This document shows, piece by piece, positions 2-16,959 of a stretch of DNA of 44,759 nt. The stretch's first letter is position 1; every line of letters begins with the position of its first letter. The stretch is from Candidatus Methylomirabilota bacterium (lineage in GTDB: Bacteria > Methylomirabilota > Methylomirabilia > Rokubacteriales > DASRDR01). A program made the position numbers and the translations under genes. The stretch lies in assembly GCA_036005065.1 (NCBI GenBank), contig DASYQW010000193.1, positions 1 through 44,759 on the forward strand. Direction: 5' to 3'. Under the pieces are notes generated by a model, which saw nothing but the letters and a program-made list of their open reading frames with translations, searched no databases and was not told where the DNA came from.

Positions 2-2539
2 CGGATCGCCGGCGAGAGGTTCGGACTCCTGGCGGGACTCTACGTCGCCCTCCCGCCGATCTTCCTCAGCTACGTCCAGCTCTCGTCTCACGGGGAGAAC
101 GTCGCCCTCACGTTCGGGACCGTCGTCCTCGCGGCCGGGACAGCCCTGCTGGACGGCCGCACGACGTCGCGGGCCCGGGCGGTGGCGTGGGCGATCCTCG
201 GGCTGGCGGGCGGTCTCGGCTGGTGGGGCACCCAGATGATGGGGATGTTCCTGGTGGCCGCGGCGCTCGCCCTCGTGGTGGCCCGTCCGCGGGTGCTGCG
301 CGAGCCGGGCCCGTATGTCGCCCTCGGGCTGTTCGCCCTCGCCGGGCTGCCGTTCTGGGTCTGGAACGTCCAGCACGAGTGGTCGACGTTCTGGCATCTC
401 CTGACGTGGGGCGACAATGGGTCCCCCGAGCTCTCGACGCGCATCGGCAACGTGGCGGGCGCCCTGGTCGCGACGCTGCGCGACTACTACTGGGACGGGC
501 ACGCCGTGAAGCTGCCGGCCCCGGTGTCGCGCGTGGGGGCTGCGGTGGTCGTGCTGGTCTACCTGCCGGCCGTGCTGCTCGCCGCCGGCCACGTCGGGAC
601 CTGGGCGTGGCGCCTCTGGCGGCGCCAGCGTCCGTGGCAGGAGCCCCTCGACCTGGTCGTCCTCGCCTTCTGGCTGACGGTGGCCGCGCACCTGGCGACC
701 TGGTTCGGGACCTCCGGCGTGCTGCGTTACTCGATGACCTTCTACGCGACGCTGCCCGTGCTCTGCGCCGTCCTGCTCGCCCGGGTCGCCCGGCTGGGGC
801 GGCTCGGGGGCGCGGTGGCCGTCGCGCTCGCGCTCCTGCTGCTCGGCTACGACGCCCTCACCCACGTCTACTTCGTCAGGGACGCGGAAGGGATGCCGCG
901 CCGTCCGGTGGACGCCGCCATCGCCCGGCTCGAGGCCCTGGGGATCCGCGCCTGCTACGCCGACAGCCGGATCGCGCAGGTCATCGCGTTCGAGTCTCGG
1001 GAGCGCGTGGTCTGCGCCGACTACGAGGGCTACCGGAACTTTGCCTTCCTGCAGGCCGTCGACGCGGTGGAGGATCCCGGCGCGGTCGCCATCGTGACCC
1101 ACCGCGTGCTCCGCGGGCCCGAGCCCGACGCGATGGCGCAGTCGCTCCGGCTCCTGGGCGCGGAGGTCGAGCGGGAGGAGGTCGGCGAGTACGTCATCTT
1201 CCACCACGCCCGGCCTCCGGACCCGCGCATCCGGCCGATCCCGCCCACCCGGTGGTCGGCCCGAACGTCCTGGGAGGCCGACGCGGCTCGTTTCGCGTTC
1301 GACCGACAGATCTGGACCCGGTGGACCGCCCGGAAGGCGGGACCCGAGTGGTTCGAGCTGGACCTCGGGGCGGTTCACCGGCTGGCCCAGGTCACGCTGG
1401 CGACCGGCCCCTTCCCGGGGGACGCCCCGGTCGGACTGCGGGTCGAGACCTCGCCGGACGGCCGCGTGTGGGACATCGCGGGGGAAGCCCCCGACCTGGT
1501 GTCGGGCCTGCACTGGTGGAAGGGGCACCCGCGCGTGGACGGGGGTGGCCGCGTGATCGTCCGGATGGTGCCGCGCCCGGCCCGCTACGTCCGCTTCACG
1601 CAGACAGGGCGGGATCGCCCCGGGGTTCTCTGGAGCCTCTCGGAGCTCTTCGCCTATGAGATCGCCGATGCGGCCTGGGAGCCGCCGCCGGCGGCCCGGG
1701 CGGCCTACCGGGAGGCGCAGGCCGAGGTCGCCCGCTGGATGGACGACCCGGGCGGCCCGCACCCGAAGCGGGCGCCCGTCACCTACGAGCATCGCCGGGC
1801 CCAGGTCCGCTGGGCGGCCGCCTTCGCCGCGGCCGATCGCGCCCTCGCCCAGGTGCCCGAGTGGGAGGACGCCTACCATCTCTACGCGAGGATCCTCGAC
1901 CTCTCCGGGTGGTCGGGCGTTCCCGAGGTCGCGCTGGCGCAGGCGCGAGCCGACGGGGCCTGGCCCGAGGTGCTTCGCTGGGTCGACCTGGCCGGCGTCT
2001 ACACCCCCGGCTTCTGGCGCTCGGGGTGGGGGGAGGCGCGCGTGGAGGCGCTGGCGAGGCTCGGGCGTGACGCCGAGACCGAGGCCGCCCGGGCGGCCGC
2101 GTCGCGCGCCGAGGCTGATCGGCGGCCCGCCCGGCCGATCCAGGTCCGCTTCGGCAGCGTGCTGGAGTTCACCGGCGCCGACTTTCCCGCTGCGGTCCAT
2201 CCCGGCGAGCGGGTCGTCGTGCGCTACTCCTGGCGCGTGCTCGACCGCATGCGCGGAGACTACACGGCGTTCGTCCACCTTCATGGCCCGGGCCGGCGGT
2301 TCGGCCACGATCACCGGATGGGCGCGGATTATGGCACGTCGCGATGGGCGGCCGGCGAGCGCACGCAGGAGACCCTCACGCTCCGCATCCCGCCCGACGC
2401 GCCGCCCGGGCCCTACTCCGTCACCGTCGGCGTGTGGCTCGCCTGGTCGGGGAAGAAGCTGCGGGTGACCGAGGCGGACGTGCCCTACAAGCGGTACGAG
2501 GCCAGCGTGGCGACGCTGAGGGTCGTTCCGTCCCGATGA
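2..2539 (+). CDS. GT-C (PMT/ArnT-like) membrane glycosyltransferase with F5/8C domain, 5' truncated
   Basis: The frame is open from the first bases of the window, so the N-terminus is missing; 845 residues remain. The first ~290 residues hold many hydrophobic segments. An early stretch reading YVQLSSHGEN resembles the lumenal/periplasmic loop of PMT/ArnT-type GT-C enzymes, which move sugars from polyprenyl-phosphate donors at the membrane. Around residues 415-550 is a discoidin/F5/8 type C-like beta-sandwich (WTARKAGPEWFELDLG, then RYVRFTQTG), a common carbohydrate-binding fold. A helical TPR-like stretch follows (~555-715), then a second beta-sandwich (~716-845, with FVHLHGPG and PPGPYSVTVGVW). 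The same four-part order recurs in the protein at 14236-16959. It ends in an ATGA overlap with the next gene, so the two are probably co-transcribed. The sugar and acceptor are unknown. Confidence 0.8.
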   Translation, partial: RIAGERFGLLAGLYVALPPIFLSYVQLSSHGENVALTFGTVVLAAGTALLDGRTTSRARAVAWAILGLAGGLGWWGTQMMGMFLVAAALALVVARPRVLREPGPYVALGLFALAGLPFWVWNVQHEWSTFWHLLTWGDNGSPELSTRIGNVAGALVATLRDYYWDGHAVKLPAPVSRVGAAVVVLVYLPAVLLAAGHVGTWAWRLWRRQRPWQEPLDLVVLAFWLTVAAHLATWFGTSGVLRYSMTFYATLPVLCAVLLARVARLGRLGGAVAVALALLLLGYDALTHVYFVRDAEGMPRRPVDAAIARLEALGIRACYADSRIAQVIAFESRERVVCADYEGYRNFAFLQAVDAVEDPGAVAIVTHRVLRGPEPDAMAQSLRLLGAEVEREEVGEYVIFHHARPPDPRIRPIPPTRWSARTSWEADAARFAFDRQIWTRWTARKAGPEWFELDLGAVHRLAQVTLATGPFPGDAPVGLRVETSPDGRVWDIAGEAPDLVSGLHWWKGHPRVDGGGRVIVRMVPRPARYVRFTQTGRDRPGVLWSLSELFAYEIADAAWEPPPAARAAYREAQAEVARWMDDPGGPHPKRAPVTYEHRRAQVRWAAAFAAADRALAQVPEWEDAYHLYARILDLSGWSGVPEVALAQARADGAWPEVLRWVDLAGVYTPGFWRSGWGEARVEALARLGRDAETEAARAAASRAEADRRPARPIQVRFGSVLEFTGADFPAAVHPGERVVVRYSWRVLDRMRGDYTAFVHLHGPGRRFGHDHRMGADYGTSRWAAGERTQETLTLRIPPDAPPGPYSVTVGVWLAWSGKKLRVTEADVPYKRYEASVATLRVVPSR

Positions 2540-5247
2540 CCCGGGGGTGGCGCGGAGCCCTGACCCTTTCCGCGGCCTTTTACGCGGGCTTCGCGGCGGG
2601 CGTCGCCATGGCGACCTGGCCGCTCGTCCTCGGCCTGGCGACCCTGTGGCCGCCCCACCACGACGCACGCGTCTTCACCTGGGTCATGGCGTCGCAGGGC
2701 CGGCGGCTTCTCACGGACCCTCTCGCCCTCTTCCACGGCAACGCCTTCTACCCGAACGGGGAAAGCCTCGCCTACACCGAGGTTCTGCTTCCCCCGACGC
2801 TCCTCGGGCTTCCGGGATTCCTGTGGGGCAACCCCGTCCTCACCTACAATCTCCTCGTCCTCGCCCTGTGGCCGTTGAACGGCGTGGCCATGGCCTGGGT
2901 GGCCTATGCGCTCACGGGCTCGCGCTCCGCCGGGTGGCTGGCCGGGGCGGTGTTCTGCCTTTCCCCGTACTTCACCGAGTACTATCTCGAGTTCCAGATG
3001 CTCCTCGCCGCCGCCCTGCCCATCGCGCTCTTCGCCTGGGTGCGCTGGCTGGAGACCCAGGAGTCCCGCTGGCTCCTGCTCGCGCTGGGGGCGCTCCTGG
3101 TCCAGGGCCTCACGACCTGGTACTACGCGATCATCCTGGGGCTCGCCCTCGCCGCGCTCGCGGGCGGCTTCCTCTGTCTCCGCTGGCACGGCTGGCAGTG
3201 GCGGCGCGTCCTCCCGGCGCTGGCCCTCGGGGGGCTCGCGACCGGCGCCATCCTCCTGCCGTTCGCGCTCCCCTATCTCGCCATTCACCGGGAATTCGGC
3301 TTCGAGCGAGGCCTGACCGAAACGGCGGAGCACTACGCCGACCTCGCGACCTTCGTCGAGCCCGGCCGGCGGAGCCTCTTCTACCATTACGTGCTGACGG
3401 GTCACGTCGCGGAGACGTCGGCCTTCGCGGGGTTCACCGTGCTGGCCCTCGCGATCGGGAGCCTCGTCTGGGCAGGTCGGGATCACCGCCCGGGTGGCCG
3501 CGCCGCCTGGCTGGGCCGCGCTCTCCTGGTGATCCTCGGGCTGACGATCGTCGCCTTCGGCTGGGCCGTCGCGCTCCATCCGGGCGGGGGCCGCCCGGGA
3601 TCGCTGCGGGTCGCCGTGCTCCTGGACGTCATCGTGGTCCTGGCCTTTGCATTGCTCGCGCTCCGGGGATGGGCGATGCGCGGCGCGCCGCGCGCGCTCA
3701 CGCGTGGCGACTGGACACGCCTCCTCCTCGCCTTCACGGTCGTCTTCGCGATTCTGGCGCTCGGGCCGGTCGTCCACTTCGGCCGCCGGCCGCTCGGCCC
3801 CGGGCCGTACGTCGCGTTCTACGACGTCCTGCTGCCATTGCGCGCCATCCGGGTCACGGCCCGCTTCGCCGTCATCTACGTGGCCGGCGTGGCGCTCCTG
3901 GCCGCGCTCGGTCTCGCCGCGGTAGAGGAGCGCCTGCGCGCCCGTCCGGGATGGCGGCGGCTCGCCGTGGCCGCGGTGTTCGTGGCCGTGGCCGCGGAAT
4001 ACGCCGTCGCCCCCGCCGCCTATCTACACGAGACCGTCGCGCCCCGGCCCGTCGACGCGCTGCTTCGCGCCGACCCCGAGGACGTGGCGGTGCTCGAGTG
4101 GCCGCTCAACGTGCGGATGGCCGATGCCGACGCCATGGTCCGCTCGCTGTGGCACCGGAAGCTCCTGGTCAACGGGCTGTCGGGCTTCATGCCGCCCGAC
4201 GTCCGGGATCTGTCGACGCTGCTCTCGACGCCCGGATCGCCGTTCCCGCTCCCGGAAGCGCAAGCGGCCCTCCGGCGCATCTACCCGCTCCGATACCTCG
4301 TCGTCCGGCTGGGGGACGACAATCTTCCGCCGATCGGACGGCCGTCCTGGCTGGCCCTCCGGCAGATTCAGCCGCCGCTCCTCAGATTCCGTGGGACCTT
4401 CGGGAGTGAGGACCTGTACGAGATCGTCCCGCTTCCGGAGCAGGCCGTGACGCTGGAGCGCCGGGTCTCGTACGATGTCCTCCGGCGCCATTCCCGGCTG
4501 GAGCTCGCCCTCCGGCCGCGGGCCACGGGGCCGGACCTCGAGCAGTGGACCACCGTGTCGCTCGACGGGCGGCCGGTCGAGCGCCTGCCGCTCGACCACG
4601 GGACCCGCGCCACCCTGAGCCTCGGGCGGGCCTCCTCGCTCGCCGTGCCCAACGTCATCACCCTCGAGTACGGATACCGGCGCCCCCTGGCCGCGCTCGA
4701 TGACGTGCGCTACCGGATCGGGACGACCGGGGTGACCGCGCCGGGCGACATCCGCGTCCTGAGCGCCGGGCAGCCGGACGTCGCCTCCGGAGCCCACGAA
4801 GAAGCCGGCTCTGTGCAGCTCAACGGGGTGGAGCTCGCGCCGCGGAGCCGGGGGTACAACATGGTCGCGCTCGACACCGAGGGCCGCGTGGTGGCGGCGG
4901 CCGCCTTCGACACCTTCTTTCGGCTCGAGGCGCCCGGACAGCTGGCCTCGTGGATCGCCGCGCTCCCGGCGGGCGTCATCGTGGCGGGCGCCGTCCGGGA
5001 CGAGGCATCGGGCCGGCTCACGGAGGAGGCCGTGGCGGCGCTCCGGGCGCTCGGGGTCACCGGAGACCTCCGCGGCCGCTTCCGGGAGGCTCACGGATTC
5101 GTCGGCGTGAAAGGCGCCGCACCGGGGACGGCCTTCGAGGCACTCGGCCCGGCGCCGGTGGAGCTCCGGGTCGGCCGGGTCGAGCTGGTGACAGGCCGGC
5201 CAGAGACCCGGCTCGGCTTCGAGCTGACCGAGTTCGCGCTGAGGTGA
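2536..5247 (+). CDS. Large multi-pass membrane protein with C-terminal ILEI/FAM3-like domain
   Basis: The start is the ATG inside the ATGA overlap with the preceding stop; the frame stays open further upstream, but that part lies inside the neighbour. The protein has 903 residues. The first ~480 hold many membrane helices with a loop (NAFYPNGESLAYTEVLLPP, then NPVLTYNLLVL) typical of large bacterial GT-C/YfhO-like membrane proteins. A soluble half follows. Residues ~755-870 contain the pattern LNGVELAPRSRGYN, VALDTEGRV, FDTF, GVIVAGAVRDEAS, ALRALG, FREAHGFVGVKG. This matches the ILEI/FAM3 domain known from FAM3 cytokine-like proteins and the stem of POMGnT1, where it binds sugar. A role as a membrane glycosyltransferase with a glycan-binding tail is inference. 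It converges with the next gene over a shared palindrome. Confidence 0.8.
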   Translation: MTRGWRGALTLSAAFYAGFAAGVAMATWPLVLGLATLWPPHHDARVFTWVMASQGRRLLTDPLALFHGNAFYPNGESLAYTEVLLPPTLLGLPGFLWGNPVLTYNLLVLALWPLNGVAMAWVAYALTGSRSAGWLAGAVFCLSPYFTEYYLEFQMLLAAALPIALFAWVRWLETQESRWLLLALGALLVQGLTTWYYAIILGLALAALAGGFLCLRWHGWQWRRVLPALALGGLATGAILLPFALPYLAIHREFGFERGLTETAEHYADLATFVEPGRRSLFYHYVLTGHVAETSAFAGFTVLALAIGSLVWAGRDHRPGGRAAWLGRALLVILGLTIVAFGWAVALHPGGGRPGSLRVAVLLDVIVVLAFALLALRGWAMRGAPRALTRGDWTRLLLAFTVVFAILALGPVVHFGRRPLGPGPYVAFYDVLLPLRAIRVTARFAVIYVAGVALLAALGLAAVEERLRARPGWRRLAVAAVFVAVAAEYAVAPAAYLHETVAPRPVDALLRADPEDVAVLEWPLNVRMADADAMVRSLWHRKLLVNGLSGFMPPDVRDLSTLLSTPGSPFPLPEAQAALRRIYPLRYLVVRLGDDNLPPIGRPSWLALRQIQPPLLRFRGTFGSEDLYEIVPLPEQAVTLERRVSYDVLRRHSRLELALRPRATGPDLEQWTTVSLDGRPVERLPLDHGTRATLSLGRASSLAVPNVITLEYGYRRPLAALDDVRYRIGTTGVTAPGDIRVLSAGQPDVASGAHEEAGSVQLNGVELAPRSRGYNMVALDTEGRVVAAAAFDTFFRLEAPGQLASWIAALPAGVIVAGAVRDEASGRLTEEAVAALRALGVTGDLRGRFREAHGFVGVKGAAPGTAFEALGPAPVELRVGRVELVTGRPETRLGFELTEFALR

Positions 5248-5259
5248 CGCCTCAGCGCG
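5235..5259. terminator. Palindrome shared by two convergent stop codons, candidate bidirectional terminator
   Basis: The arms CGCGCTGAGG (5235-5244) and CCTCAGCGCG (5250-5259) are perfect 10-bp inverted repeats around the 5-bp loop TGACG. The loop contains the TGA stop of the plus-strand gene (5245-5247), and the right arm contains the minus-strand stop (5252-5254). Only four bases separate the two coding regions, so this hairpin is the only visible candidate for stopping transcription from either side. There is no T-run, so intrinsic termination is not assured. Confidence 0.5.
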
Positions 5260-7717
5260 GGGCCACGGCCAGCCGGTCGAAGAAGACGCCCGCGTCGCCC
5301 AGGTAGCCGACGGGGAACTCCAGCACCATCGGGACCGGCAACACGAAGTCCAGGCCGACCTCGCGGTACCGGCCGGGGCGCAGCTCGGTGCCGTCTACCG
5401 TCCGCGCCGCCAGCAGTCGCCCCTGCGGCTCGGTCACGGCGAGCCGGAGGAGCGGCCCGCGGGTCTCGCGGTCCGCCCGCGCGAAGAGGGTCACGCGGTA
5501 GCGCCCGGCGGGATACAGCCGGGCGGGCCCGCTCACGAGGTCGGTCCGGAAGCTCTCGACCGGGTCGGCGTAACCGGCCCAGCCGCCCGAGGCCGCCGGG
5601 TCCGCCCGCTCGCCGAGCCTGTGGGGGAGGTCCTCGACCTCGAACCCCCACTCGGGCTGCGGGCGGGCTGCGAAGGCCACCGACACCCAGTCGGCGGCCG
5701 CCTCGCCCCGGCCGTTCCAGCGGACGCGGTACTCGACGGGCTGGGCGCGGTCCAGCTCGAACGGGAGCTCCACCTCGTCCCAGGTGGCCCGCGGCTCGAC
5801 GGGCCGCTCGGCCAGCACCCGTCGGCCCTGATCCACGGTGACCTCGAGCGTGAGCCCGCTGCCGCGCACCCGGAACACGGCCTGGTAGGCGGCCGCGGGC
5901 AAGAGGCGGTAGGGGCCGAAGGTCAGGAAGCCGGGGCGATCGATGCCGGGGCGGCCGGCCACGAACCGCCCGCCGGACACCGCCGGGTCGTCGACCACGG
6001 CGCCGGTCTCACGCGGCAGAGCTTCGGCTTCGAAGAAGAGGCCGACGGGCGAGGTGACGCGAGGCCGGTCCACCGGAGCCCGATCGGTGACGCGGAAGAG
6101 CCACAGGGGGTCCGCGGCGCTTTCCAGCACGAGTCCCGGCGTGGCGCGGAGGTGCGCGAGCGTGTACCCCGTCGGGAAGGGACTGACCTGCGGCGGGAAG
6201 AGCGCGCGGTCGAGGACCACGTGCGTCACGCCCAGCCGGCGGAGGAGCGCGTGCTCCGGGAGCCCGAGGTCGCCGACGTTCAGGCCCTGGAGCGGCGCGA
6301 ACACGTCAGCCACGTACCGGCGCGGCACCATCGGGGAATAGCCGTTCAGCATCGGCACCCGCGTGCGGGTCACCGTGTAGAGGTAGATGGACGACCACGC
6401 GCTGTCCCCGGGCCAGAGCGGCAGGTACAGGACCCGCCGCGCCTCCGCGCGGATCGCCGCGTGGACGGCGCTGTCCGGGATCCGGGTGAGCACGATGGGG
6501 TGCCAGGGCGCCGTGCCGGCGATGGTGGCGACGAGGAGGGCTGGCGCCGCGTACCGGCGGACCGGCGGCGAGAGGCGGGCGGTCAGCGCGCCGACACCCC
6601 AGCCGGCCAGCACCGCGGCGCCCAGGCTCGCCAGCAGGCGGAACTTCTCCGGGTTGCGGATCAGCGTGAAGAGCGGGACCCAGCGATGGAGGGCCTGGTA
6701 GAGCGGCAGGCCCGGCAGGGTCGGGCCGACGCCGAGGACGAGGCCGGCGATCAGCAGCGCTCCGTAGAAGAGACGAAGGGCCCGCGCATCGCGCGCCCCC
6801 GCGACGAGGCCCAGGAGGGCGAGGCCGATCAGCACCGCGCCCCCGTACGTCGCGGGCACCAGGAGCGCCGCCGGCCCCGGCGAGTGGAGGCGGACTTCCC
6901 CGAGGCTCCGGCCGGCCTCGGCGATCGAGCCCAGGAGGAACGTCTGCCGGAGCATCCAGAGCCAGGCTGCGCCCGCGGCGGCGGGCAGCGCGAACGCGAC
7001 CAGGGGTCCCGGGGGGACGGCGGGGCGTCCGGCCGTCGCCCACCGCAGCGCGACGTAAGCCGGGACGAGGGCGGCCACCAGGTACGTATAGTGCGGCTCG
7101 AGGGTCGCGAGCGCGAAGACGGCGGCCCCGGCCGTCGCGCCGCCCGCCAGCGACCCGCGGAGGAGCGCGCGGTCGAGCCCCCACAGCACGAGGGGCGGGA
7201 GCGCGGCCGCGAAGCCCGCCGGCTGGCCGCCGAAGAGCGGCTCGAGGCGCGCGGGAACGAGGGCGTAGGCCAGCCCCGCCGCCACCGCGGCGAGCCCATG
7301 GCCCGTGTAGCGACGAACCAGGATGTAGGCGCTGAGCCCCGCCAGGGGAAACGAGAGGAGGACGAGGAGGTTGTAGGCGCCGTGCGGACCGAGCGGGCTC
7401 AGGAGGGCGAAGGGGACGGCCAGCGGAAGGAAGCTCTGGGGCAGGTTCCAGCGCGGCCCGTCGGTCCGGAACTGGTAAGGGTCCCAGAAGAGCGGCGTCG
7501 TCCCGAGGAGCCCGTCGCGGAAGAGCCAGAGCTCGTAGTAGAGCTGCAGCGAGTCGCCCGGCGCCCGGGTGAGGACGGCCCGCTCGCCCGGCGCGTGCGG
7601 GATGACGGGGAGCGCGTCTGCCCAGTGGACGGCGAGCGGCCGGGAGACCACGAGCCCGATCGCGAGCAGCAGGATCGCGAGGACGAGGGCCGCCCCGAGC
7701 CCCGTGCGCCGCCTCAC
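5252..7717 (-). CDS. Large multi-pass membrane protein with two C-terminal beta-sandwich repeats
   Basis: The chosen start is a GTG at 7717 that overlaps the stop of the upstream gene (GTGA). The frame is open 22 codons further, but only inside the neighbour. The 821-residue protein begins RRRTGLGAALVLAILLL, a signal-anchor-like helix. Many membrane segments run to about residue 410, followed by a periplasm-like part. Two similar modules start near residues 562 (FFEAEALPRETG) and 692 (FEVEDLPHRLG), each followed by an FRVRG/YRVTLFARAD-type beta strand pattern like CBM6/35-type sugar-binding sandwiches. It is clearly paralogous to the next gene (shared LYLPLWPGDS, RVPMLNGYS, DVFAPLQGLNVGDLG-type stretches). 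It is probably a GT-C-type or other polyprenyl-linked glycan enzyme, but no catalytic residue can be assigned. Confidence 0.75.
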   Translation of the reverse strand: MRRRTGLGAALVLAILLLAIGLVVSRPLAVHWADALPVIPHAPGERAVLTRAPGDSLQLYYELWLFRDGLLGTTPLFWDPYQFRTDGPRWNLPQSFLPLAVPFALLSPLGPHGAYNLLVLLSFPLAGLSAYILVRRYTGHGLAAVAAGLAYALVPARLEPLFGGQPAGFAAALPPLVLWGLDRALLRGSLAGGATAGAAVFALATLEPHYTYLVAALVPAYVALRWATAGRPAVPPGPLVAFALPAAAGAAWLWMLRQTFLLGSIAEAGRSLGEVRLHSPGPAALLVPATYGGAVLIGLALLGLVAGARDARALRLFYGALLIAGLVLGVGPTLPGLPLYQALHRWVPLFTLIRNPEKFRLLASLGAAVLAGWGVGALTARLSPPVRRYAAPALLVATIAGTAPWHPIVLTRIPDSAVHAAIRAEARRVLYLPLWPGDSAWSSIYLYTVTRTRVPMLNGYSPMVPRRYVADVFAPLQGLNVGDLGLPEHALLRRLGVTHVVLDRALFPPQVSPFPTGYTLAHLRATPGLVLESAADPLWLFRVTDRAPVDRPRVTSPVGLFFEAEALPRETGAVVDDPAVSGGRFVAGRPGIDRPGFLTFGPYRLLPAAAYQAVFRVRGSGLTLEVTVDQGRRVLAERPVEPRATWDEVELPFELDRAQPVEYRVRWNGRGEAAADWVSVAFAARPQPEWGFEVEDLPHRLGERADPAASGGWAGYADPVESFRTDLVSGPARLYPAGRYRVTLFARADRETRGPLLRLAVTEPQGRLLAARTVDGTELRPGRYREVGLDFVLPVPMVLEFPVGYLGDAGVFFDRLAVAPR

Positions 7718-10650
7718 GGGGGGAGTGGCCCCTCGATCCGAAGGCGATCGAACCAGACCCCCGTGCCGCCGCGGTAGAGGCATGGAAACTCCAGGACCGC
7801 CGCCCGCGGGAGCGTGAAGGGGACCGCCAGCTCGACGTATCGTCCGGCGTCGCCGACCTCGGCGCCCAGGAGCTCACGGCCACCGACGATGGAACCGAGC
7901 GAGGCCGCCTGGGCGCCACACCACGCGAAGGGCGCGGCGCCGACTCGGTCGAGCTTGACGCGCACCCAGAGCCGATACCGCCCCGCCGGGTAGCCCCGGA
8001 GCGGCCCGCTCCAGAGACGGTCGCGCGGGGTCCGCCGCGGGTCGGCGTAGCCGGCCACGCCCTCGCTCGACTCCGGATCGTGCCGCTCCAGCAACTCGTG
8101 GCCGAGGGCCTGGACCTCGAAGACGGGCGCGGGGTCGGGTAGATCGGCGAAGGCCCCCGCCACCGAGTCCACGGCGAGCCAGCCAGCGCCTGCCCACTTG
8201 ACGCGGTATTCCACGCTGGCCGGCTCATCGAGCCGGAACGGGACCGGGACGTCCTCGAAGGTATCTGCCGGATGCACGGTCCGCGTCCCCAGCACCCGCT
8301 GGCCGCTTGCCGCGGTCACCTGGAGCTCCGCCGCGCTGCCGTGGCCGCGAAGGCGGAAGACTGCCCGGAACGGGCCCACCGGCAGCATGCGGTAGGGACC
8401 GAAGATGACGAATCCCGGGCGATCCCGTCCGGCCCGGGCCAGCACCACGCGGCCGTTGGACGCCTCGGGGTCGATCGTGATGACCCCCGTCTCGCGCGGA
8501 AGGGACTCGGCCTCCCAGAAGAGACCCAGCGGGCTGCGGGGAGCGGCGGCGGCGCCGTTCCCCGGCCGCTCGCGGACGCGGAACACCCAGAGCGGGTCAC
8601 CGTCGGCCGCCGGCGCCAGGAGCTCCAGGAAGCGCGACGTCCGGAGATTCGCGAGCGTGAAGGCGGGCCCGAAGGCGCTCACCTTCATCGGAAAGGCGTC
8701 GCGGTCGAAGATGATCTGTCGCACGTGAAGCCGCCGGAGGGTCGCGTACTCGGACTCGCCGACCACGCCGATGTTGAGCGCCTCGAGCGCCCGGTAGACG
8801 TCGGTCACGTAGCTGCGCTCGATCCAGGCCGAGTAGCCGTTGAGCATCGGCACCCGCGTGAGCGTGGTCGTGTAGAGATAGATCGCCGAGAAGGAGCTGT
8901 CCCCGGGCCAGAGCGGAAGGTAGAGGGCCCGCGCGCCGCCGGTGCGGATCGTCTCGTAGGCGGACCCTGCCGTCGGCAAGAGACTCAGCCCGGCCGGGCG
9001 CCACGGGTGGTACTCGGCGGCGATGCCGAGCGCCAGCGCGGCGGCGAGGGCCGTCCGCCCCCACGATCGAGCCGCCTGGCGGCCGAGCGCCTCGACGGCG
9101 ACCGCGGCCAGGATCGCGAGGGCCAGACTCGCGACCACCTGGAACTTGGCCGGCTGCCGGACGAAGTTCCAGAAGGGCACGAGGTGAAAGGCCGCCTCGA
9201 AGAGCGGCACGACCGTGAGCCGCGGGCCCAACGAGAGGGCCCCGCTCAGGACGGCGACAGGCACGAAGGCCCAGAGGATTCGGCGGCGCGGTTCGGGCGG
9301 CGTCCGGGCCAGGGCGACCGCCCCGACCAGCGCCAGGGCGACGGGGAGCGCGCCGGGATAGATCGCGCGGTTGGCGGTCGGGTTCACGCGCGTGAAGAGG
9401 TCGGCGGTCACCGGCGAAAACAGGAGCACCTCGTGGAGCGAGCGGCCGGCACCCGCCACCGAGCGGGTGAGGAGCGCGCCCCGCAGCGCGAGCAGAAAGC
9501 CCGCGCCGGCTCCGGCCCCGGCGCCCGCGACGAGGAGCGGGAGGATCGGCACCCGCCAGAGCGCCCCCGCTCGGAGGAGCCAGCCCGCGTGGATCACGAT
9601 CGGGAGCGCGAGGGCGACGAGCGCCAGCTTCGCGCCTCTCCCCGCGCCCAGCCCGGCCCCGGCGGTGGCGAGCCAGGGGAGAAGGGCGTGGAGGCTTCGC
9701 CGGGCAGCCAGGCGCCCGTCGGGCGCCACGCCGCTGGCGCGGAGCCAGCCCGCCGCGCACTGCCAGACGGTCAGGGCGCCGAGCGCGACGACGAGGCCGA
9801 TGGCGAGCCGGGCGCCGGCCGGCGGGTCCCACCCCTGTAGGCGCAACAGGGCGAGCGCACCCCACGCGGGCGCCGCCGCGATCGCGAGAGCGAGCACCCA
9901 GTGTCCGGGGCCGACCCCCAGGGCATCCCGCGCGAAGCCGGCGAGCCCCACCCGGGCCAGGAGGTAGAGCGGGAGGCCCAGCGCCGCGAAGTAAAAGAAG
10001 TGGGGCTCGACGATCGCCAGCGACAGGAGCGCGATCGCGCAGGAGACGCCGCCGGCGACGGAGCCGGCCAGGGCGCCTTCCAGCCCCCACAGCGCGAGCG
10101 GGACCAGGAAGTAGGCCAGCCCGGCCGGATGCCCGCCGAGGAGCGCGCCCAGGCGATAGGGCGCGCACGCGAAGACCGCGCCCGCCACCAGCGCCCCCCA
10201 GCGGCCGATGCCGTACCGGTGCGCCAGGAGCGCGGCGGCGAGGCCCGCCAGCGGAAACGACAGGAGGACGAGCAGGTTGTAGGCGAGGCGCGGCCCGGGG
10301 ACCGAGAGTGGAAGGTAGAGGAGGGCCAGCGGCAGGAACGTGTTGGGCAGGTTGAGGCGGGGCCCGTCGGTCGCGAACTGGTACGGGTCGCGGAGCGGCG
10401 AGGCGCCCGCGCCCACCCGGTCCCGAACGAGCCAGAGGTAGTAATAGAACTGGAGATAGTCGCCCTGGATCCGCCAGGCGGTCTCGCGCCCCTCCGAGGG
10501 GACCGCGGCGAACGGGAGGGCGTCTCCGAGGTGGGCGACCAGCGGGAGCGTGTAGAGGGCGGCGAGGACCAGAAACGCCAGGGCGACGCCGAGCGTCGCG
10601 GGGCGTCCGAAGCGCTCGAGGTTACCGGGCGAGCCGGCCGGCGAGCCCAA
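7714..10650 (-). CDS. Large multi-pass membrane protein, paralogue of the downstream gene
   Basis: The frame is open to 10878, but the upstream part overlaps a glycosyltransferase gene. The best start inside the overlap is a TTG at 10650, giving 978 residues, 29 bases into the neighbour; no ATG or GTG lies closer, so the start is uncertain. The N-terminus (LERFGRPATLGVALAFLVLA) is a membrane helix, followed by a loop (GDYLQFYYYLWLVRDR, DPYQFATDGPRLNLPN) and many more helices. The region before the C-terminus shares LYLPLWPGDSSFSAIYLYT and RVPMLNGYS with the downstream paralogue. Two beta-sandwich modules begin near residues 710 (FWEAESLPRETG) and 843 (FEVQALGHELL). The gene arose by tandem duplication or shares a recent ancestor with its neighbour. 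Glycan-related function is inferred from context and fold. Confidence 0.72.
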   Translation of the reverse strand: MGSPAGSPGNLERFGRPATLGVALAFLVLAALYTLPLVAHLGDALPFAAVPSEGRETAWRIQGDYLQFYYYLWLVRDRVGAGASPLRDPYQFATDGPRLNLPNTFLPLALLYLPLSVPGPRLAYNLLVLLSFPLAGLAAALLAHRYGIGRWGALVAGAVFACAPYRLGALLGGHPAGLAYFLVPLALWGLEGALAGSVAGGVSCAIALLSLAIVEPHFFYFAALGLPLYLLARVGLAGFARDALGVGPGHWVLALAIAAAPAWGALALLRLQGWDPPAGARLAIGLVVALGALTVWQCAAGWLRASGVAPDGRLAARRSLHALLPWLATAGAGLGAGRGAKLALVALALPIVIHAGWLLRAGALWRVPILPLLVAGAGAGAGAGFLLALRGALLTRSVAGAGRSLHEVLLFSPVTADLFTRVNPTANRAIYPGALPVALALVGAVALARTPPEPRRRILWAFVPVAVLSGALSLGPRLTVVPLFEAAFHLVPFWNFVRQPAKFQVVASLALAILAAVAVEALGRQAARSWGRTALAAALALGIAAEYHPWRPAGLSLLPTAGSAYETIRTGGARALYLPLWPGDSSFSAIYLYTTTLTRVPMLNGYSAWIERSYVTDVYRALEALNIGVVGESEYATLRRLHVRQIIFDRDAFPMKVSAFGPAFTLANLRTSRFLELLAPAADGDPLWVFRVRERPGNGAAAAPRSPLGLFWEAESLPRETGVITIDPEASNGRVVLARAGRDRPGFVIFGPYRMLPVGPFRAVFRLRGHGSAAELQVTAASGQRVLGTRTVHPADTFEDVPVPFRLDEPASVEYRVKWAGAGWLAVDSVAGAFADLPDPAPVFEVQALGHELLERHDPESSEGVAGYADPRRTPRDRLWSGPLRGYPAGRYRLWVRVKLDRVGAAPFAWCGAQAASLGSIVGGRELLGAEVGDAGRYVELAVPFTLPRAAVLEFPCLYRGGTGVWFDRLRIEGPLPP

Positions 10651-11806
10651 TGTCCCGATAGACCTCGAGGAGGCGCCCCCCCAGCACCGGCCAGCCGAAC
10701 TCGGCGACGGCCCGTTCCCGCGCAGCCTGGCCGCGGAGCTTGCGCTCGCCGGCGTCCTGGAGAAGTCCGCCACAGGCGTCGGCGAGCGCGGAGACGTCGC
10801 CGAGGGGCACGAGGACGCCGGTCTCCCCCAGAATCTCCCGCGCGACCGGTCCATCGTAGGCGATCGTCGGCAAGCCACACGCCATGTAGTTGAGCAGCTT
10901 GCCGTTGGCCTCGGTGGTGGAGCGCTTCGGGCTCACCGCGACCTCGCCGAGAGCGAGGTAGCGCGGAGCCTCGTGGTAGGCGATGCCCCCGGTGACCGTG
11001 ACGGAGCCCTCGATCCCCTGCCGGGCCGCCTCCCGGCGGTAGCGGTCTTCGTTCGGGTAGCCCATCAGGAGGAGGTGCGCGTCCGGGACCGCTCGGACGA
11101 CCGCCGGCCAGGCGGCGAGGAGGTCGTCGACGCCCTGGTAGGGCGTGAGGACCCCGAGGTAGACGACGACCCGCTTCCCGTCGATTCCGAGCCGGTGCCG
11201 GAGGGCGTCGGCCGGGATCCCCGGCCGGAACACTTCCGGGTCGACGCCATCCGGCAGCGGCACGATGCGGCGGGCCGGGACGCCCCACCGTTCGGCGAGC
11301 TCGCGGGCGAGCCACGTCGAGGACGCGAGGATCCGGGTCGGCCCGCGGAGGATCGCCCGCTCCAGGCGCCGGACGACGGCGGGAAGCGGACCCCGGGCCG
11401 GCAGGGTGCCGTGGTCCACGAGCTCCCCGGTCAGGCTGCCCTGGAGGTCGGCGACCGCTGGACGTCCGATGAGGCGGCCCAAGAGGGACGCCAGCGCGGC
11501 GCCCTCGTGGAGGTGGCCGTGGAGGACGTCGGGCCGGAAGCGCCGGGCGGCGCGGGCGGCGGTCAGGAACAGGATGACGTCGAGGTAAGGCTTGTGGATC
11601 GAGAAGCCGACCGGGAGCCGGCGCACCCAGCCGAGGCGCGGCGTTCGGGTCGTCGGGACGTCGGGGACGTCCCGGCCGACGTGGTACGTCGCGACGAGGA
11701 CGTCGACGCCGCGGGCGCGGAGCGTCCGGGTCTCCTCGAAGATCCGGACGTGGCACCCGCGATCGCCGAAGAACGGCGTGGGCGCCAGCATCAGGACGCG
11801 CATCAT
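10622..11806 (-). CDS. GT4-family glycosyltransferase
   Basis: This is a 394-residue GT-B enzyme. The N-terminal domain opens with RVLMLAPTPFFGDRGCHVR, where the small-residue loop accepts the acceptor sugar. The C-terminal nucleotide-sugar domain has VVVYLGVLTPYQGVDDLL, LLLMGYPNEDRY and the donor-site block SPKRSTTEANGKLLNYMACG, with the acidic and lysine residues usual in GT4. No membrane segment is seen, so it should act at the cytoplasmic face on a lipid-linked acceptor. Two ATG codons stand in tandem at the start (11804-11806 and 11801-11803), and no Shine-Dalgarno sequence is evident. Donor and linkage cannot be read from sequence. Confidence 0.88.
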   Translation of the reverse strand: MMRVLMLAPTPFFGDRGCHVRIFEETRTLRARGVDVLVATYHVGRDVPDVPTTRTPRLGWVRRLPVGFSIHKPYLDVILFLTAARAARRFRPDVLHGHLHEGAALASLLGRLIGRPAVADLQGSLTGELVDHGTLPARGPLPAVVRRLERAILRGPTRILASSTWLARELAERWGVPARRIVPLPDGVDPEVFRPGIPADALRHRLGIDGKRVVVYLGVLTPYQGVDDLLAAWPAVVRAVPDAHLLLMGYPNEDRYRREAARQGIEGSVTVTGGIAYHEAPRYLALGEVAVSPKRSTTEANGKLLNYMACGLPTIAYDGPVAREILGETGVLVPLGDVSALADACGGLLQDAGERKLRGQAARERAVAEFGWPVLGGRLLEVYRDIGLAGRLAR

Positions 11807-11932: not shown

Positions 11933-12973
11933 TCAGACGCGGACCAGCCTCCGGAGCCACCCGTACGACATCACGTGGTCGGAGATGAACGCCTTGAGGT
12001 AATCGGTCGGCACCCCCATCACCTGGTGTCGCCAGATCCGATCACACGAATAGCAGGGGAGATCCTTGGGCACGTCGCCGCGCGCCATCTGGTCGCGGAG
12101 CTGGACGAGCCGCGTGTCGTTCCAGATCTCCCGCAGGGGCTTGTCCCGGAGGTCCCCCATGCCGAGCTTTCCGAAGAAATCCTGGGGGCAGGCGGTCACC
12201 GTTCCGTCCCAGTAGATCGTCGAGGAGTACCAGAGGAAGGTGCACGGCGTGAACCGGCGGCCGTCGGACAGGAGCGCATCGCGGGAGAGCTCCGGCATGA
12301 ACACGTCGCCGGCCCAGTTGTGCGGGGTGCGGAGCACGACCCGGTCGAGCGGGAGCCCCGCGAAGTTCGCCAGAAACTGGCGGCGCAGCCGCTTGAGCTC
12401 GGCCTTGGGCGGAGCGCCGATCTCCATCACCTGGAGCACCGTGAAGGGCCGCTTCGATCGGAGATCGCGCTTCAGCTCGAGGAACCGCTTGAGGTGGTCG
12501 AGCGCCCACTCGAACTTCGCGCCCACGCGATTCTTCTCGTACATCCCCTTCTCGTATCCGTCGAAGGAGCACGACATGAAGTCGAGGCCGGCCTCGATGA
12601 GCGCCCGCGCCTTCTTTTCGTTGAGGAGCGTGATGTTCGTGTGGATGCGGGTGTAGAGGCCCCGCTCCCGCGCGTAGGCGACCATCTCGGGGAGCCCGGG
12701 GTGCATCGTCGGCTCGCCCCGATGAAAGAGGTTCACGTCGTAGGCATGGTCCGCGACCTGATCGATGATCCGCTTGTAGAGGGCGAGGTCCATGAAGCCG
12801 TGGTCTTTCTTCTCGATGTCCCTGTTGGGACAGTAGCCGCAGCGGAGGTTACAGTGGCTGGTGGACTCGATCCAGAGCCGCACGGGGAGCTGAGGAACTC
12901 GGCTCCGTCCGGTCTTGTAGGCCCAGTAGATCCGGGCCAGGCGGGCAAAATGCCGGAATTGGCGACGATCCAC
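11933..12973 (-). CDS. Radical SAM protein with SPASM-like C-terminus
   Basis: This 346-residue protein has the radical SAM cluster motif CNLRCGYC, with C41, C45 and C48 binding the [4Fe-4S] cluster that cleaves S-adenosylmethionine. HRGEPTMHP is the GGE-like SAM-contact strand. The C-terminal part (PCTFLWYSSTIYWDGTVTACPQ, then LREIW and CYSCDRIW) has the cysteine spacing of SPASM/twitch domains, which bind auxiliary iron-sulfur clusters. The first ~30 residues are basic and helical. Relatives occur in polysaccharide and peptide-modification clusters. Here it lies among glycosyltransferases, so a sugar or lipid-carrier modification is plausible but unproven. A TATAAT hexamer lies 7 bases upstream of the start, so transcription may begin almost at the ATG. 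Confidence 0.85.
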   Translation of the reverse strand: MDRRQFRHFARLARIYWAYKTGRSRVPQLPVRLWIESTSHCNLRCGYCPNRDIEKKDHGFMDLALYKRIIDQVADHAYDVNLFHRGEPTMHPGLPEMVAYARERGLYTRIHTNITLLNEKKARALIEAGLDFMSCSFDGYEKGMYEKNRVGAKFEWALDHLKRFLELKRDLRSKRPFTVLQVMEIGAPPKAELKRLRRQFLANFAGLPLDRVVLRTPHNWAGDVFMPELSRDALLSDGRRFTPCTFLWYSSTIYWDGTVTACPQDFFGKLGMGDLRDKPLREIWNDTRLVQLRDQMARGDVPKDLPCYSCDRIWRHQVMGVPTDYLKAFISDHVMSYGWLRRLVRV

Positions 12974-14235: not shown

Positions 14236-16959
14236 TCACCCGCCGGCGGCCGCCGCGGGAAGGACCTCGACGGTTCCCAGCTCGATGCGATGGCCGGGAA
14301 GCGGCAGGATGCCAGCCCACCACCCCCGGAGCATGTGCCCGGAGCTCGGCTGCCGCACGCCGACCAGGATGCGGTGCCGTCCCGGCCGCGCGTCGTCGGG
14401 CACCACCAGCCGCCAGCGTCCAACGAGGTGCTGAGGGCCGGTGCCGAGTCCCGGGATCCAGCCGGGAAGCGCCCGCTCGCCCCCGAAGGCGCCGTGCGGA
14501 CCCCGGACCTGCACGGAGGTCACGAGCGGCGCGCCGTCGGGCGAGAGCCGCCACCCACAGGCGAGCTCCAGCGTCTGACGCGGACGGACGCGGTCGGGCG
14601 GCGGATCGCACCCGGTCAGCTCGAGCCGGTGGCCGAATGCCGTGTGGACCCGCCCCCGCGGGTACGCGATCGCGTCCGCGTCGGCCTCCAGGCGGCGGGC
14701 TCGTTCCGTCTCGCCCAGCCGGGCGGCCATGATCGCCATCGCGCGGGCCAGCTCCGCGTGACTGACGTCGGGGGGGAGCGTTCGGATGAGCGCGTCGTAG
14801 GCCGCTCGGGCCTCGTCCGCGAGCCCCAGCCCGAGGAAGCGGGCAGCCCGCGCCGCCGGCGACGCCCGATCGAGGCCGAGGTCGGCGGCGAGCCGGAGGA
14901 ATCCGATGTAGCCCTCTGGATCGTCGGGCTGGGCCTCCATGGCCACGCGATAGCGGAGGAGGGCGGCTTCACGCGCGCCGGCCGCCTCGAGGCGGCGGGC
15001 CATCTCGAGAGGCGACGGGGTCCCGGCGACCCGCCTCGGGTCACTGGCCGGCGCGAGCACGAACAGCTCGGTCACCGGCCAGCCCGGGGTGTCGCCGGCG
15101 CTCGTCAGCCGGAGATGCCGGGTCTCGATCGGCGCGAACCGGACCGTGAGCGCGGGGCCCGGCGCGGTCCGCGGCGCGCCGTTCCGCCACGTGACCGTGA
15201 AGCCGTGGGTGTCGAGCCGTGCGAAGGGAGGCCCGTCTCCGGCGGCGACCTCGAGGAACCCCGGGATACGCGTCGGGTCGTCTGTCAGGATCGTCACCCC
15301 GGCGACGCGCCGGGGCTGCCCGAGGTCGACCTCGACCCAGGCCGAGCGGGCCGGCCCCGGCGCGCTCGACCAGCCGGACGTGAGACGCCCGTCGACGAGG
15401 GCCCCGGGCTCGCCGGTTCCCGGGCTCGTCGTCACTCGCCACCCGGCACGCGGCACGGGCACCGCCTTCGCCGGCGGGACGAAATCCGACAGGACGAAGT
15501 AGGGTCCGAGCTGGACGCGCTGGGCCCGGATGCCGGAGGCCCGCAGCCAGTTCTCGAAGAGGGCGAGGTCACCGCGCCGGACGATGTACGCCGGCCGCGG
15601 AGACGCGTCCACGGCCCGCGTATACGGCGGGTACCGGTCGTTCACCGGGTCGGCCACGATGACCGCCTCAGCGGCGTCGAAGGTCAGCCGCGGCGCCAGC
15701 CAGTACTCGTAGGCGTACGCGTGGCGGAGCCCCTGGCTCTGGAGGAAGGCGAAGAGAGCCATGTCCTCCCCACGCCGTGTCCAGTACGTCTGCCAGCTCG
15801 ACGGCCAGAGCACGGTGAGGTCCCCGAAGTAGCCGACCCCGACCGCGGCGACATACGCAGCGGCACCGGCGATCGCGGCGATGCGCGAGCGACGCCACAC
15901 GAGCTGGCTCGCGCGGGCCAAGATGAGGGCCAGGATGGGCATGAGGGGCAGGAGATAGCGGGGGACCCAGGTGAAGCGGCCCACCCAGACGACCCCGACG
16001 GCGGTCGCGGCGGCGACCAGCAGCATGGCCTCGCCGGCCAGCGCGGGGTCCCGGCGGAGCCGCTGGATCCCGCGCCCGACCCGGACCGCAAGCAGCCCGA
16101 GCGCGGCGACGACGATGGCCGGGGCCGTGAAGGCGAGCGGCCCCGGGAGGTAGGGCGGCGTCCGGACCCACTCCCTGACGCCCAGCAGGACCGGGAGGCG
16201 GTTGGAGAAGATCGAGTCCAGCGCCTCCATCAACGACTCGTCGCGCTGGAACCGCAGCCCGGTGGCGAAGCTCCCCCAGCCGTGGCTCGCGTTATGGATC
16301 CAGAACGGGGCGCTCCCGAGAAAGAAGGCCCCCAATCCGAGCCAGGCCCCACGCCGGAGCACGAAGCCGGGATCCACCAGCAGCAGAGCGAATGCGGCGG
16401 GCACCACGGCGTCCACGATCTGGAAGCCGAAGTAGAGGCCGACGCCCCCGGCCAGGCCCATCGCCACCAGCGTGCGGCTCTTGGCGGCCTCGCTCAGCGG
16501 TCGGGCGAGCCACAGCGCGGCGCCGAGGAGGAGCACCTGGCCGACGAGCAGGTGCTCGATGTAGTAGGCCCGGGCCAGGACGTAGTGGGAGGCCACGTAC
16601 GGCGAGACGATGGTGACGAAGAGGATGGCGAGGAGACCCGCCCCGTGGCCGAAGAGGACGGCGCCCGTCCGGTACACGGCGAGGGCCAGACCCACGGCGG
16701 CGAGCGAGGGGACCAGGTTGAGGGTCCACCGCGAGACCCCGAGCAGGAAGAAGGAGACCGCCGCGCCGTACGATTCGGGGATGCCGGCGTGCTCCTGACT
16801 CCAGAAGAAGACCGGGAACTCGCCGCGGAGGATGTGGAGTCCCATCAGGCCGGTGACCGCCTGGTCCGAGTCGAGCCGCGGGGCGGCGAGCTGGAGGCCG
16901 ACCAGGAGGACGAAGAGCCCGACCAGGGCCCAGAAGCGCCAGTCGCGCGTCGCCGTCAC
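14236..16959 (-). CDS. GT-C (PMT/ArnT-like) membrane glycosyltransferase with F5/8C, TPR and beta-sandwich domains
   Basis: The protein has 907 residues. It opens with a membrane helix and the first periplasmic loop LAAPRLDSDQAVTGL, where the acidic residues (D-S-D) sit in the place of the conserved GT-C/PMT catalytic aspartate. HILRGEFPVFFWSQEHAG follows, and about ten more membrane segments run to residue ~425. Residues ~505-640 form an F5/8 type C-like domain (LVDGRLTSGWSS, WVEVDLGQPRRVAGVTI, ETRHLRLTS). A helical TPR-like stretch (~645-765) and a terminal beta-sandwich follow. The same order is found in the truncated protein at 2-2539. It likely transfers a sugar from a polyprenyl-phosphate donor in the periplasm; the GT2 gene just upstream (17121-17822) is the type that makes such donors. 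Substrates are unknown. Confidence 0.82.
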   Translation of the reverse strand: MTATRDWRFWALVGLFVLLVGLQLAAPRLDSDQAVTGLMGLHILRGEFPVFFWSQEHAGIPESYGAAVSFFLLGVSRWTLNLVPSLAAVGLALAVYRTGAVLFGHGAGLLAILFVTIVSPYVASHYVLARAYYIEHLLVGQVLLLGAALWLARPLSEAAKSRTLVAMGLAGGVGLYFGFQIVDAVVPAAFALLLVDPGFVLRRGAWLGLGAFFLGSAPFWIHNASHGWGSFATGLRFQRDESLMEALDSIFSNRLPVLLGVREWVRTPPYLPGPLAFTAPAIVVAALGLLAVRVGRGIQRLRRDPALAGEAMLLVAAATAVGVVWVGRFTWVPRYLLPLMPILALILARASQLVWRRSRIAAIAGAAAYVAAVGVGYFGDLTVLWPSSWQTYWTRRGEDMALFAFLQSQGLRHAYAYEYWLAPRLTFDAAEAVIVADPVNDRYPPYTRAVDASPRPAYIVRRGDLALFENWLRASGIRAQRVQLGPYFVLSDFVPPAKAVPVPRAGWRVTTSPGTGEPGALVDGRLTSGWSSAPGPARSAWVEVDLGQPRRVAGVTILTDDPTRIPGFLEVAAGDGPPFARLDTHGFTVTWRNGAPRTAPGPALTVRFAPIETRHLRLTSAGDTPGWPVTELFVLAPASDPRRVAGTPSPLEMARRLEAAGAREAALLRYRVAMEAQPDDPEGYIGFLRLAADLGLDRASPAARAARFLGLGLADEARAAYDALIRTLPPDVSHAELARAMAIMAARLGETERARRLEADADAIAYPRGRVHTAFGHRLELTGCDPPPDRVRPRQTLELACGWRLSPDGAPLVTSVQVRGPHGAFGGERALPGWIPGLGTGPQHLVGRWRLVVPDDARPGRHRILVGVRQPSSGHMLRGWWAGILPLPGHRIELGTVEVLPAAAAGG

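Follow-up and report, generated by a model that had tools for sequence, protein, structure and literature searches.

An ILEI/FAM3 domain on a GT-C-like membrane protein in a Methylomirabilota O-antigen region

What might a domain known from animal FAM3 proteins and from the stem of human POMGnT1 do on a bacterial membrane protein? The question is raised by P0001, a protein of 903 amino acids encoded at 2536-5247 on the plus strand of contig DASYQW010000193.1 from a Candidatus Methylomirabilota genome (assembly GCA_036005065.1); the whole 44,759-nucleotide stretch analysed is referred to as the window. A first-pass annotation, made from the letters alone, had proposed an ILEI/FAM3-like domain on this protein and had read it as a glycan-sensing module. 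The answer that we favour, with moderate confidence, is that P0001 is a periplasmic-facing GT-C glycosyltransferase (GT) whose C-terminal ILEI domain would serve as a carbohydrate-binding module (CBM).

The ILEI domain and its sugar-contact residues

The reading frame of P0001 appears genuine: its ATG at 2536 and the stop codon of the gene before it overlap within an ATGA, and the GC content at the three codon positions (0.77/0.53/0.89, counted from the first start of the frame at 2344) is like that of the other coding frames of the window. The sole Pfam family in the protein is ILEI (PF15711), which matches residues 772-861 (4849-5118, plus strand) over profile positions 1-90 of 90 with a score of 56.6 bits, the cut-off being 27 (E = 3.7e-15; 62.1 bits in a six-frame search). 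As a profile match covering the whole family model, this lies far beyond chance level, and the same profile matched none of 14 control genomes. A hidden Markov model (HMM) of bacterial ILEI domains extends the module to residues 754-871 (4795-5148, plus strand) with 124.2 bits, a score obtained with a model whose building set contained P0001's own domain. Both intervals agree with the first-pass annotation, which had placed the domain at 4800-5160 and had proposed the search against PF15711; the peptides that it had listed (NGVE, SRGYN, VALDTEGRV, FDTF, GVIVAGAVRDEAS, LRALG and FREAHGFVGVKG) are all present, in that order, in the translation of 2536-5247.

Comparison with solved structures by sequence points in the same direction. 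A single-sequence search of PDB chains with P0001 returned the POMGnT1 stem (E = 9.9e-5) and FAM3B (2.6e-4), with FAM3C (0.11 and 0.78) and FAM3A (0.22) falling short of significance. When 12 bacterial ILEI domains, including two from the window's own genome, were combined into a profile, this matched the POMGnT1 stem (1.1e-20), FAM3B (3.4e-18), TMEM2 (3.8e-18), FAM3C (1.7e-17) and FAM3A (9.5e-17), and nothing outside the ILEI/FAM3 family at E < 0.1. Judged by these profiles, the C-terminal part of P0001 is a full-length ILEI/FAM3 ("GG") domain.

Could such a domain reflect eukaryotic contamination or a chimeric contig? The genome is a draft of 419 contigs with an estimated contamination of 4.42%, but the codon-position GC agrees with that elsewhere on the contig, a second ILEI protein of the same genome (the paralog P0002) lies on another contig beside bacterial genes, and the same architecture recurs in unrelated bacteria. 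The present results rule out an artefact for practical purposes. With their ILEI domains cut off, the membrane parts of P0001 and P0002 match each other with 482 bits.

The residues that contact sugar in the characterised relatives are also found in P0001. Arg129, Asp179 and Arg207 of the POMGnT1 stem are directly involved in binding beta-linked N-acetylglucosamine (GlcNAc), and FAM3 members retain the equivalent residues, with GlcNAc binding described for FAM3C and FAM3A (PMC9802357). Arg129 and Asp179 are reported as indispensable for saccharide binding, and a phage CBM that shares the fold conserves both (PMC9437275). Aligned to PDB entry 5ggj, P0001 has R772 (4849-4851), D822 (4999-5001) and R850 (5083-5085, all on the plus strand) as the equivalents of Arg129, Asp179 and Arg207; we converted the chain numbering of 5ggj ourselves, and a constant offset fits all three residues. 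The paralog P0002 also has R-D-R, and thus both ILEI copies of the genome keep the triad. On this alignment a POMGnT1-like sugar site in P0001 is plausible, and we infer, with good support from the conserved triad, that its ILEI domain may bind glycans; from the same triad one may guess that the ligand would be GlcNAc-like.

P0001 resembles POMGnT1 in the full-length domain match, in the three sugar-contact residues and in the attachment of the domain to a glycosyltransferase, here a putative one, whereas it differs in carrying the domain C-terminally on a GT-C-like protein with 11 predicted transmembrane (TM) helices. FAM3A-D (ILEI/PANDER) share the domain and the triad with P0001, but are small secreted animal proteins with no enzyme attached. 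Among phage proteins, the CBM_1 of the streptococcal phage TP-778L Tal protein has the POMGnT1-stem fold with the Arg and Asp conserved, as in the ILEI domain of P0001 (PMC9437275), and gp35 is listed with a GG domain (PMC10276149); unlike P0001, both are phage adhesion or tail proteins with no transferase. Searches with the ILEI region of P0001 itself gave no tblastn relative at E ≤ 0.01 among plasmids or phages, and a pattern scan of viral contigs, run with the single domain or with a 12-row alignment, gave none either. Its matches in PHROGs are two families of unknown function (best E = 4.6e-4), and the ILEI regions of two other genomes match a phage tail-protein family, phrog_23593 (G645, 1.6e-9; G391, 9e-5).

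The membrane part and recurrence of the pairing

Hydropathy and a positive-inside count predict 11 TM helices in residues ~1-495 of P0001 (2536-4020, plus strand), in a GT-C-like arrangement with the N-terminus inside and the C-terminus outside; a predicted periplasmic linker without a family match above cut-off (residues ~496-753; 4021-4794, plus strand) leads to the ILEI domain. Within loops shorter than 70 amino acids, lysine and arginine are denser on the inner side (20 in 99 residues) than on the outer side (21 in 246), which places the C-terminal ILEI domain outside. GT-C examples have 8-13 TM helices (PMC8035078), and P0001 has the GT-C trait of many TM helices combined with a soluble part on the predicted outer side. 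The first outer loop contains an aspartate, D43 (2662-2664, plus strand), which is invariant in 5/5 aligned relatives and is followed by a FYPxG motif; it is a candidate GT-C catalytic or metal acid. GT-C enzymes typically have an acidic outer-loop motif, DxD or a modified form; in P0001 it would be a single Asp and not DxD.

The relatives extend this picture. With ILEI cut off, the membrane part of P0001 matches those of ILEI proteins from genomes G180 (40.9 bits) and G572 (39.0 bits). The G180 membrane part in turn matches those of G403 (289 bits), G400 (279 bits) and G643 (27 bits); the G643 protein is related to a YfhO-matching protein of G295 (149 bits), and P0001's link to the YfhO types runs only via G180. 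The G400 relative also matches PMT_2, below its cut-off (16.2 bits). Topology, the first-loop Asp and these relatives together support a GT-C-like host part, as far as sequence comparison reaches.

How widespread is the pairing? Within the window's phylum, ILEI was found in 2/95 genomes, namely the window's own and G020. A broad sample gave ILEI in 21 of 388 genomes, 20 over the cut-off and 19 outside the window's phylum; further searches gave 6/251, 9/14, 2/4, 1/2, 2/2 and 1/1 genomes, figures that are no prevalence estimates, as these searches were centred on genomes with matches and overlap the broad sample. At least five predicted TM helices precede ILEI in 25 of the 40 distinct ILEI-bearing frames collected, a proportion biased by the choice of centres. 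In the broad sample, 12 of 26 ILEI proteins have at least five TM helices ahead of the domain, whereas for other open reading frames (ORFs), drawn from 25 loci, the figure is 19 of 101 (Fisher p = 0.009). The size of this effect is rough because the control ORFs, of at least 300 amino acids and chosen mechanically, include some false ones. The 26 exclude a 277-amino-acid frame with one TM helix (G273:C15) and include two domains below the Pfam cut-off (G313 and G128:C207, the latter among the 12).

The membrane families involved are diverse. Pfam searches with ten ILEI hosts found YfhO in five, PMT_2 in two (G108, and G020 with 26.5 bits against 26.1) and a TMEM260-like family in one (G020), all above cut-off; the G180 and G191 hosts matched no membrane family in Pfam, and that of G313 matched ILEI only, below cut-off. 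The membrane part of the G191 and G388 proteins presumably resembles TMTC-type O-mannosyltransferases. Seven of these hosts (G295, G359, G222, G237, G374, G108 and G020, with YfhO, PMT_2 or TMEM260-like membrane parts) share the pairing of GT-C and ILEI with P0001, but belong to other GT-C families and in part carry two ILEI copies each (G237, G374, G108) or a permuted one (G020). Neighbours of other GT-C/ILEI genes include GT2, methyltransferase and YdjC genes (G180), two GT2s (G572) and a Polysacc_synt_2 gene (G400). The TMEM260-like/ILEI gene of G020 is flanked by genes of the UbiA family (locus L091, 5158-6033, plus strand) and of the LPG_synthase_TM family (9572-10567, plus strand), which recall pentofuranose three-component systems with their UbiA-type donor synthases (PMC11127046).

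A tree of 44 ILEI domains, from which eight short or permuted domains were left out, does not resolve the deep branches and so shows neither one nor several fusion events; the argument for several comes from the different GT-C families alone. A contig scan with a 3-row alignment, its third row fitting badly, returned one locus (L005) and is no measure of domain frequency.

Tandem and rearranged domains add to the variety. Long multi-TM proteins with two ILEI copies occur in 9/14 genomes of one small phylum, that of G237 (L081-L087, L047, L048), where the YfhO match comes from the two hosts searched for it, those of G237 and G374; the second ILEI copy keeps R-D-R in G641, G644, G645 and G646. 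The halves of the G020 domain are swapped: positions 52-122 of the 124-position HMM lie at residues 494-564 (64.2 bits), followed by positions 3-47 at residues 597-641 (33.0 bits). The swapped order also occurs, with lower scores, in G128 (27.1/11.5 bits) and G273 (25.3/10.4 bits). By the order of their HMM matches, these are circularly permuted ILEI domains at three loci, on the TMEM260-like GT-C of G020 (L091, 6033-8438, plus strand; L005 is part of L091), on a multi-TM protein of G128 that has a Wzy_C protein as neighbour (L089, 4937-6808, plus strand) and in the 277-amino-acid frame of G273 (L092, minus strand). In G020, 32 residues separate the halves, much as 31 residues separate the two whole ILEI domains of G108. 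Such spacing would be expected had a tandem pair lost its outer halves, and the permuted form probably derives from such a pair.

ILEI is also found on non-membrane hosts, among them two Peptidase_C25 proteins, one CotH protein and a TPR protein. The Peptidase_C25 proteins lie at 5656-11352 of L033 and 5900-11278 of L035, both on the minus strand; both ILEI copies of the G139 host have R-D-R, and the G149 copy does not. These domains are possibly glycan-binding modules of secreted proteases.

The glycan-biosynthesis neighbourhood

The neighbourhood of P0001 in the window is an O-antigen/lipopolysaccharide (LPS) region of a diderm. Its O-antigen/LPS cluster (13070-35629, minus strand) encodes RmlD, at least two DegT aminotransferases, methyltransferases, four GT4s, a Wzm-like ABC2 permease, a sugar epimerase/dehydratase and LptD. 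Two GT2s are candidate synthases for a three-component transmembrane glycosylation system, which combines a polyprenyl-phosphate-sugar synthase with a flippase, often GtrA, and a GT-C: one (17121-17822, minus strand) is like polyprenyl-phosphate-sugar synthases of the AglJ/ArnC/PgfS kind, and the second (20173-20919, minus strand) is like ArnC and dolichyl-phosphate-hexose transferases, each far below the curated cut-offs. The genome is without a GtrA match despite several GT-C-like proteins and these polyprenyl-phosphate-sugar-synthase-like GT2s.

An F5/8 type C (galactose-binding-like) domain follows the TM part in the products of two further multi-TM genes of the window, which counts in favour of a CBM role for ILEI. 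One of these genes (2-2539, plus strand), the upstream gene that P0001 overlaps, is cut at its 5' end by the contig end; the other (14236-16959, minus strand) encodes a PMT_2-type GT-C (PMT_2, E = 2.5e-6, 28.2 bits against 26.1; F5/8 type C, 1.9e-7), and the two proteins are related (102.7 bits). A convergent GT-C-like membrane protein (5252-7783, minus strand), the C-terminal region of which has no named family, has a GT-C-like paralog (578-589 bits) at 7714-10878 on the minus strand, with an uncertain start codon. The C-terminal ~260 residues of both (5252-6031 and 7717-8511, minus strand) are 49% identical, look like two similar halves and are reminiscent of CBM6/35-type motifs. A named CBM family for these regions was rejected, with no Pfam match at E ≤ 10, and the same regions gave no credible match in the PDB, the best (E = 0.014) being an artificial protein. 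A GT4-type glycosyltransferase gene with approximate boundaries (10622-11806, minus strand) overlaps the ORF 7714-10878, and a radical SAM/SPASM protein (11933-12973, minus strand), an unusual neighbour for glycan genes, is encoded inside the O-antigen cluster.

Proposed role and rival explanations

By analogy, P0001 fits the kind of enzyme in which a GT-C is joined to a CBM, with an animal FAM3-type module in the CBM role. EmbA/B/C, AftD and ORF12 of C. youngae likewise combine a multi-TM GT-C with a periplasmic module that binds the acceptor sugar, but they belong to other GT families, and their CBMs are beta-sandwich or immunoglobulin-like, not ILEI (PMC7341804, PMC11127046). EmbB carries two CBMs (PMC7341804), those of EmbC and AftD contact the acceptor (PMC11127046), and such CBM-type domains have been described for AftD and possibly YfhO (PMC8035078). 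If the analogy holds, the donor would be a polyprenyl-phosphate sugar supplied by GT2 synthases of the kind encoded at 17121-17822 or 20173-20919, and the membrane part of P0001 would transfer the sugar from it to a periplasmic glycan. R772, D822 and R850 would let the ILEI domain grip this glycan, as acceptor or as product, in the way that the POMGnT1 stem binds beta-linked GlcNAc; most likely, again by analogy, the domain would keep the acceptor near the active site. The analysis shows the identity of the ILEI domain, the conservation of its triad, the invariant outer-loop Asp, the glycan-biosynthesis neighbourhood and the same pairing in further GT-C types; the 11-TM topology with an outer C-terminus is predicted, and catalysis, sugar specificity and acceptor binding are what we infer.

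Several results weigh against this role. P0001 has no curated GT-C family match in Pfam or NCBIfam, and a profile of its membrane part matched no PDB chain at E ≤ 10, so that a solved relative of the GT-C part was rejected as well; we call the protein GT-C-like for these two reasons. The first-pass description of the host as GT-C-like thus stands on topology, first-loop Asp and relatives, and lacks a curated profile. A GtrA-type flippase (PF04138) was not found in the window's genome, where other flippase types were not searched, and the locus of the paralog P0002 holds CoA-transferase, MeaB and Fe-S protein genes, which are not glycan genes. Since ILEI also occurs on peptidases and a CotH protein, it is no hallmark of transferases. 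In the O-antigen GT-C ORF12 the CBM bound the enzyme's own LPS, yet activity did not require it (PMC11127046), and even a true CBM may therefore be accessory. The fold models and the triad counts, taken up below, add to these points.

The lack of a GT-C profile match, together with the export genes of the cluster, would also fit a membrane part that, instead of transferring sugars, ligates, polymerises or transports O-antigen while ILEI holds the glycan. This we regard as very unlikely, given the direct similarity to the G180 and G572 proteins, that to G400 and G403 via G180, the path from G180 through G643 to the YfhO-matching G295 protein, and the invariance of the first-loop Asp in all five aligned relatives.

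AlphaFold was run on single window sequences of the ILEI part only (203 and 135 amino acids) and gave poor models, with mean pLDDT (predicted local distance difference test) values of 43.7 and 46.8, respectively. Foldseek nevertheless gives 12 matches at E ≤ 0.001, every one a FAM3 structure, and POMGnT1 (from 1.3e-3) and TMEM2 (0.23) come next, ahead of unrelated entries, in a scoring that also draws on amino acids and not on structure alone. VIA-align places POMGnT1, FAM3 and TMEM2 at ranks 1-12 (Z 5.5-4.6; the following unrelated row has 3.9), with the warning that Z < 8 may reflect a common arrangement. The structure comparison suggested in the first-pass annotation hence ranks the expected proteins, of beta-beta-alpha fold, at the top from poor models; it weakly agrees with the sequence result on ILEI/FAM3/POMGnT1-stem identity, which Pfam, the PDB sequence matches and the triad bear out, and would not suffice alone.

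The triad itself is unevenly kept. Among the 35 ILEI domains whose host proteins have five or more predicted TM helices, 8 show the full R-D-R (Asp in 25, first Arg in 16, second Arg in 18), and so do 3 of 15 domains on other proteins, all three from G139; two ILEI fragments were set aside in these counts. R-D-R being absent from most multi-TM ILEI domains, many copies would bind something else or nothing, and the site that is plausible in P0001 is no rule for the bacterial family. The incomplete triad in 27/35 domains, the existence of a FAM3C dimer crystal structure (5lc4) and the dispensable CBM of ORF12 (PMC11127046) could be explained if ILEI served the GT-C protein structurally or for dimerisation, with sugar binding lost in most bacterial copies. 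We consider this unlikely for P0001, since both copies of its genome keep the full triad, the Asp is kept in 25/35 domains and the characterised relatives bind sugars (PMC9802357).

The predicted periplasmic position and the sugar-binding residues would equally permit the ILEI domain to sense periplasmic or external glycans and to regulate the membrane protein, in the sense of the original glycan-sensing proposal. Against this, searches of P0001 returned no match to a signalling domain, the scanned proteins as a whole showed neither such a domain nor a regulator, most of the neighbours scanned are biosynthetic, and in many relatives ILEI sits on enzymes of glycan-building families. Sensing is accordingly highly improbable; the evidence fits acceptor or glycan binding by a biosynthetic enzyme instead, as in the GT-C reading that we favour.

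The pairing of ILEI with GT-C proteins in unrelated bacteria suggests an old glycan-reading module for glycan-building enzymes. Tentatively, and with less than even confidence, ILEI may be a general glycan-reading module of prokaryotic GT-Cs that was joined several times independently (P0001 type, YfhO, PMT_2, TMEM260-like) and in some branches circularly permuted via a tandem pair, and the animal POMGnT1 stem and FAM3 hormones may descend from or reuse this bacterial writer-reader module. The open-access literature searched, partly judged by titles, contained no paper joining ILEI with bacterial GT-C enzymes; bacterial members score above Pfam's ILEI cut-off, and database annotation of single bacterial ILEI proteins probably exists. 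P0001 would be an enzyme of an already known kind, GT-C with CBM, bearing a CBM type known from animals and phages.

Defects of POMGnT1 cause muscle-eye-brain disease. How the hormone-like FAM3 proteins work at the molecular level is unclear (PMC9802357). The recurrence of the FAM3/POMGnT1 domain on bacterial glycan-building membrane enzymes, with the triad kept in some, would give this domain a functional frame, namely glycan binding beside a transferase. Bacterial ILEI proteins offer systems for testing the ligand of the domain and its effect on catalysis, and ILEI adds to the candidate acceptor-binding modules of GT-C enzymes.

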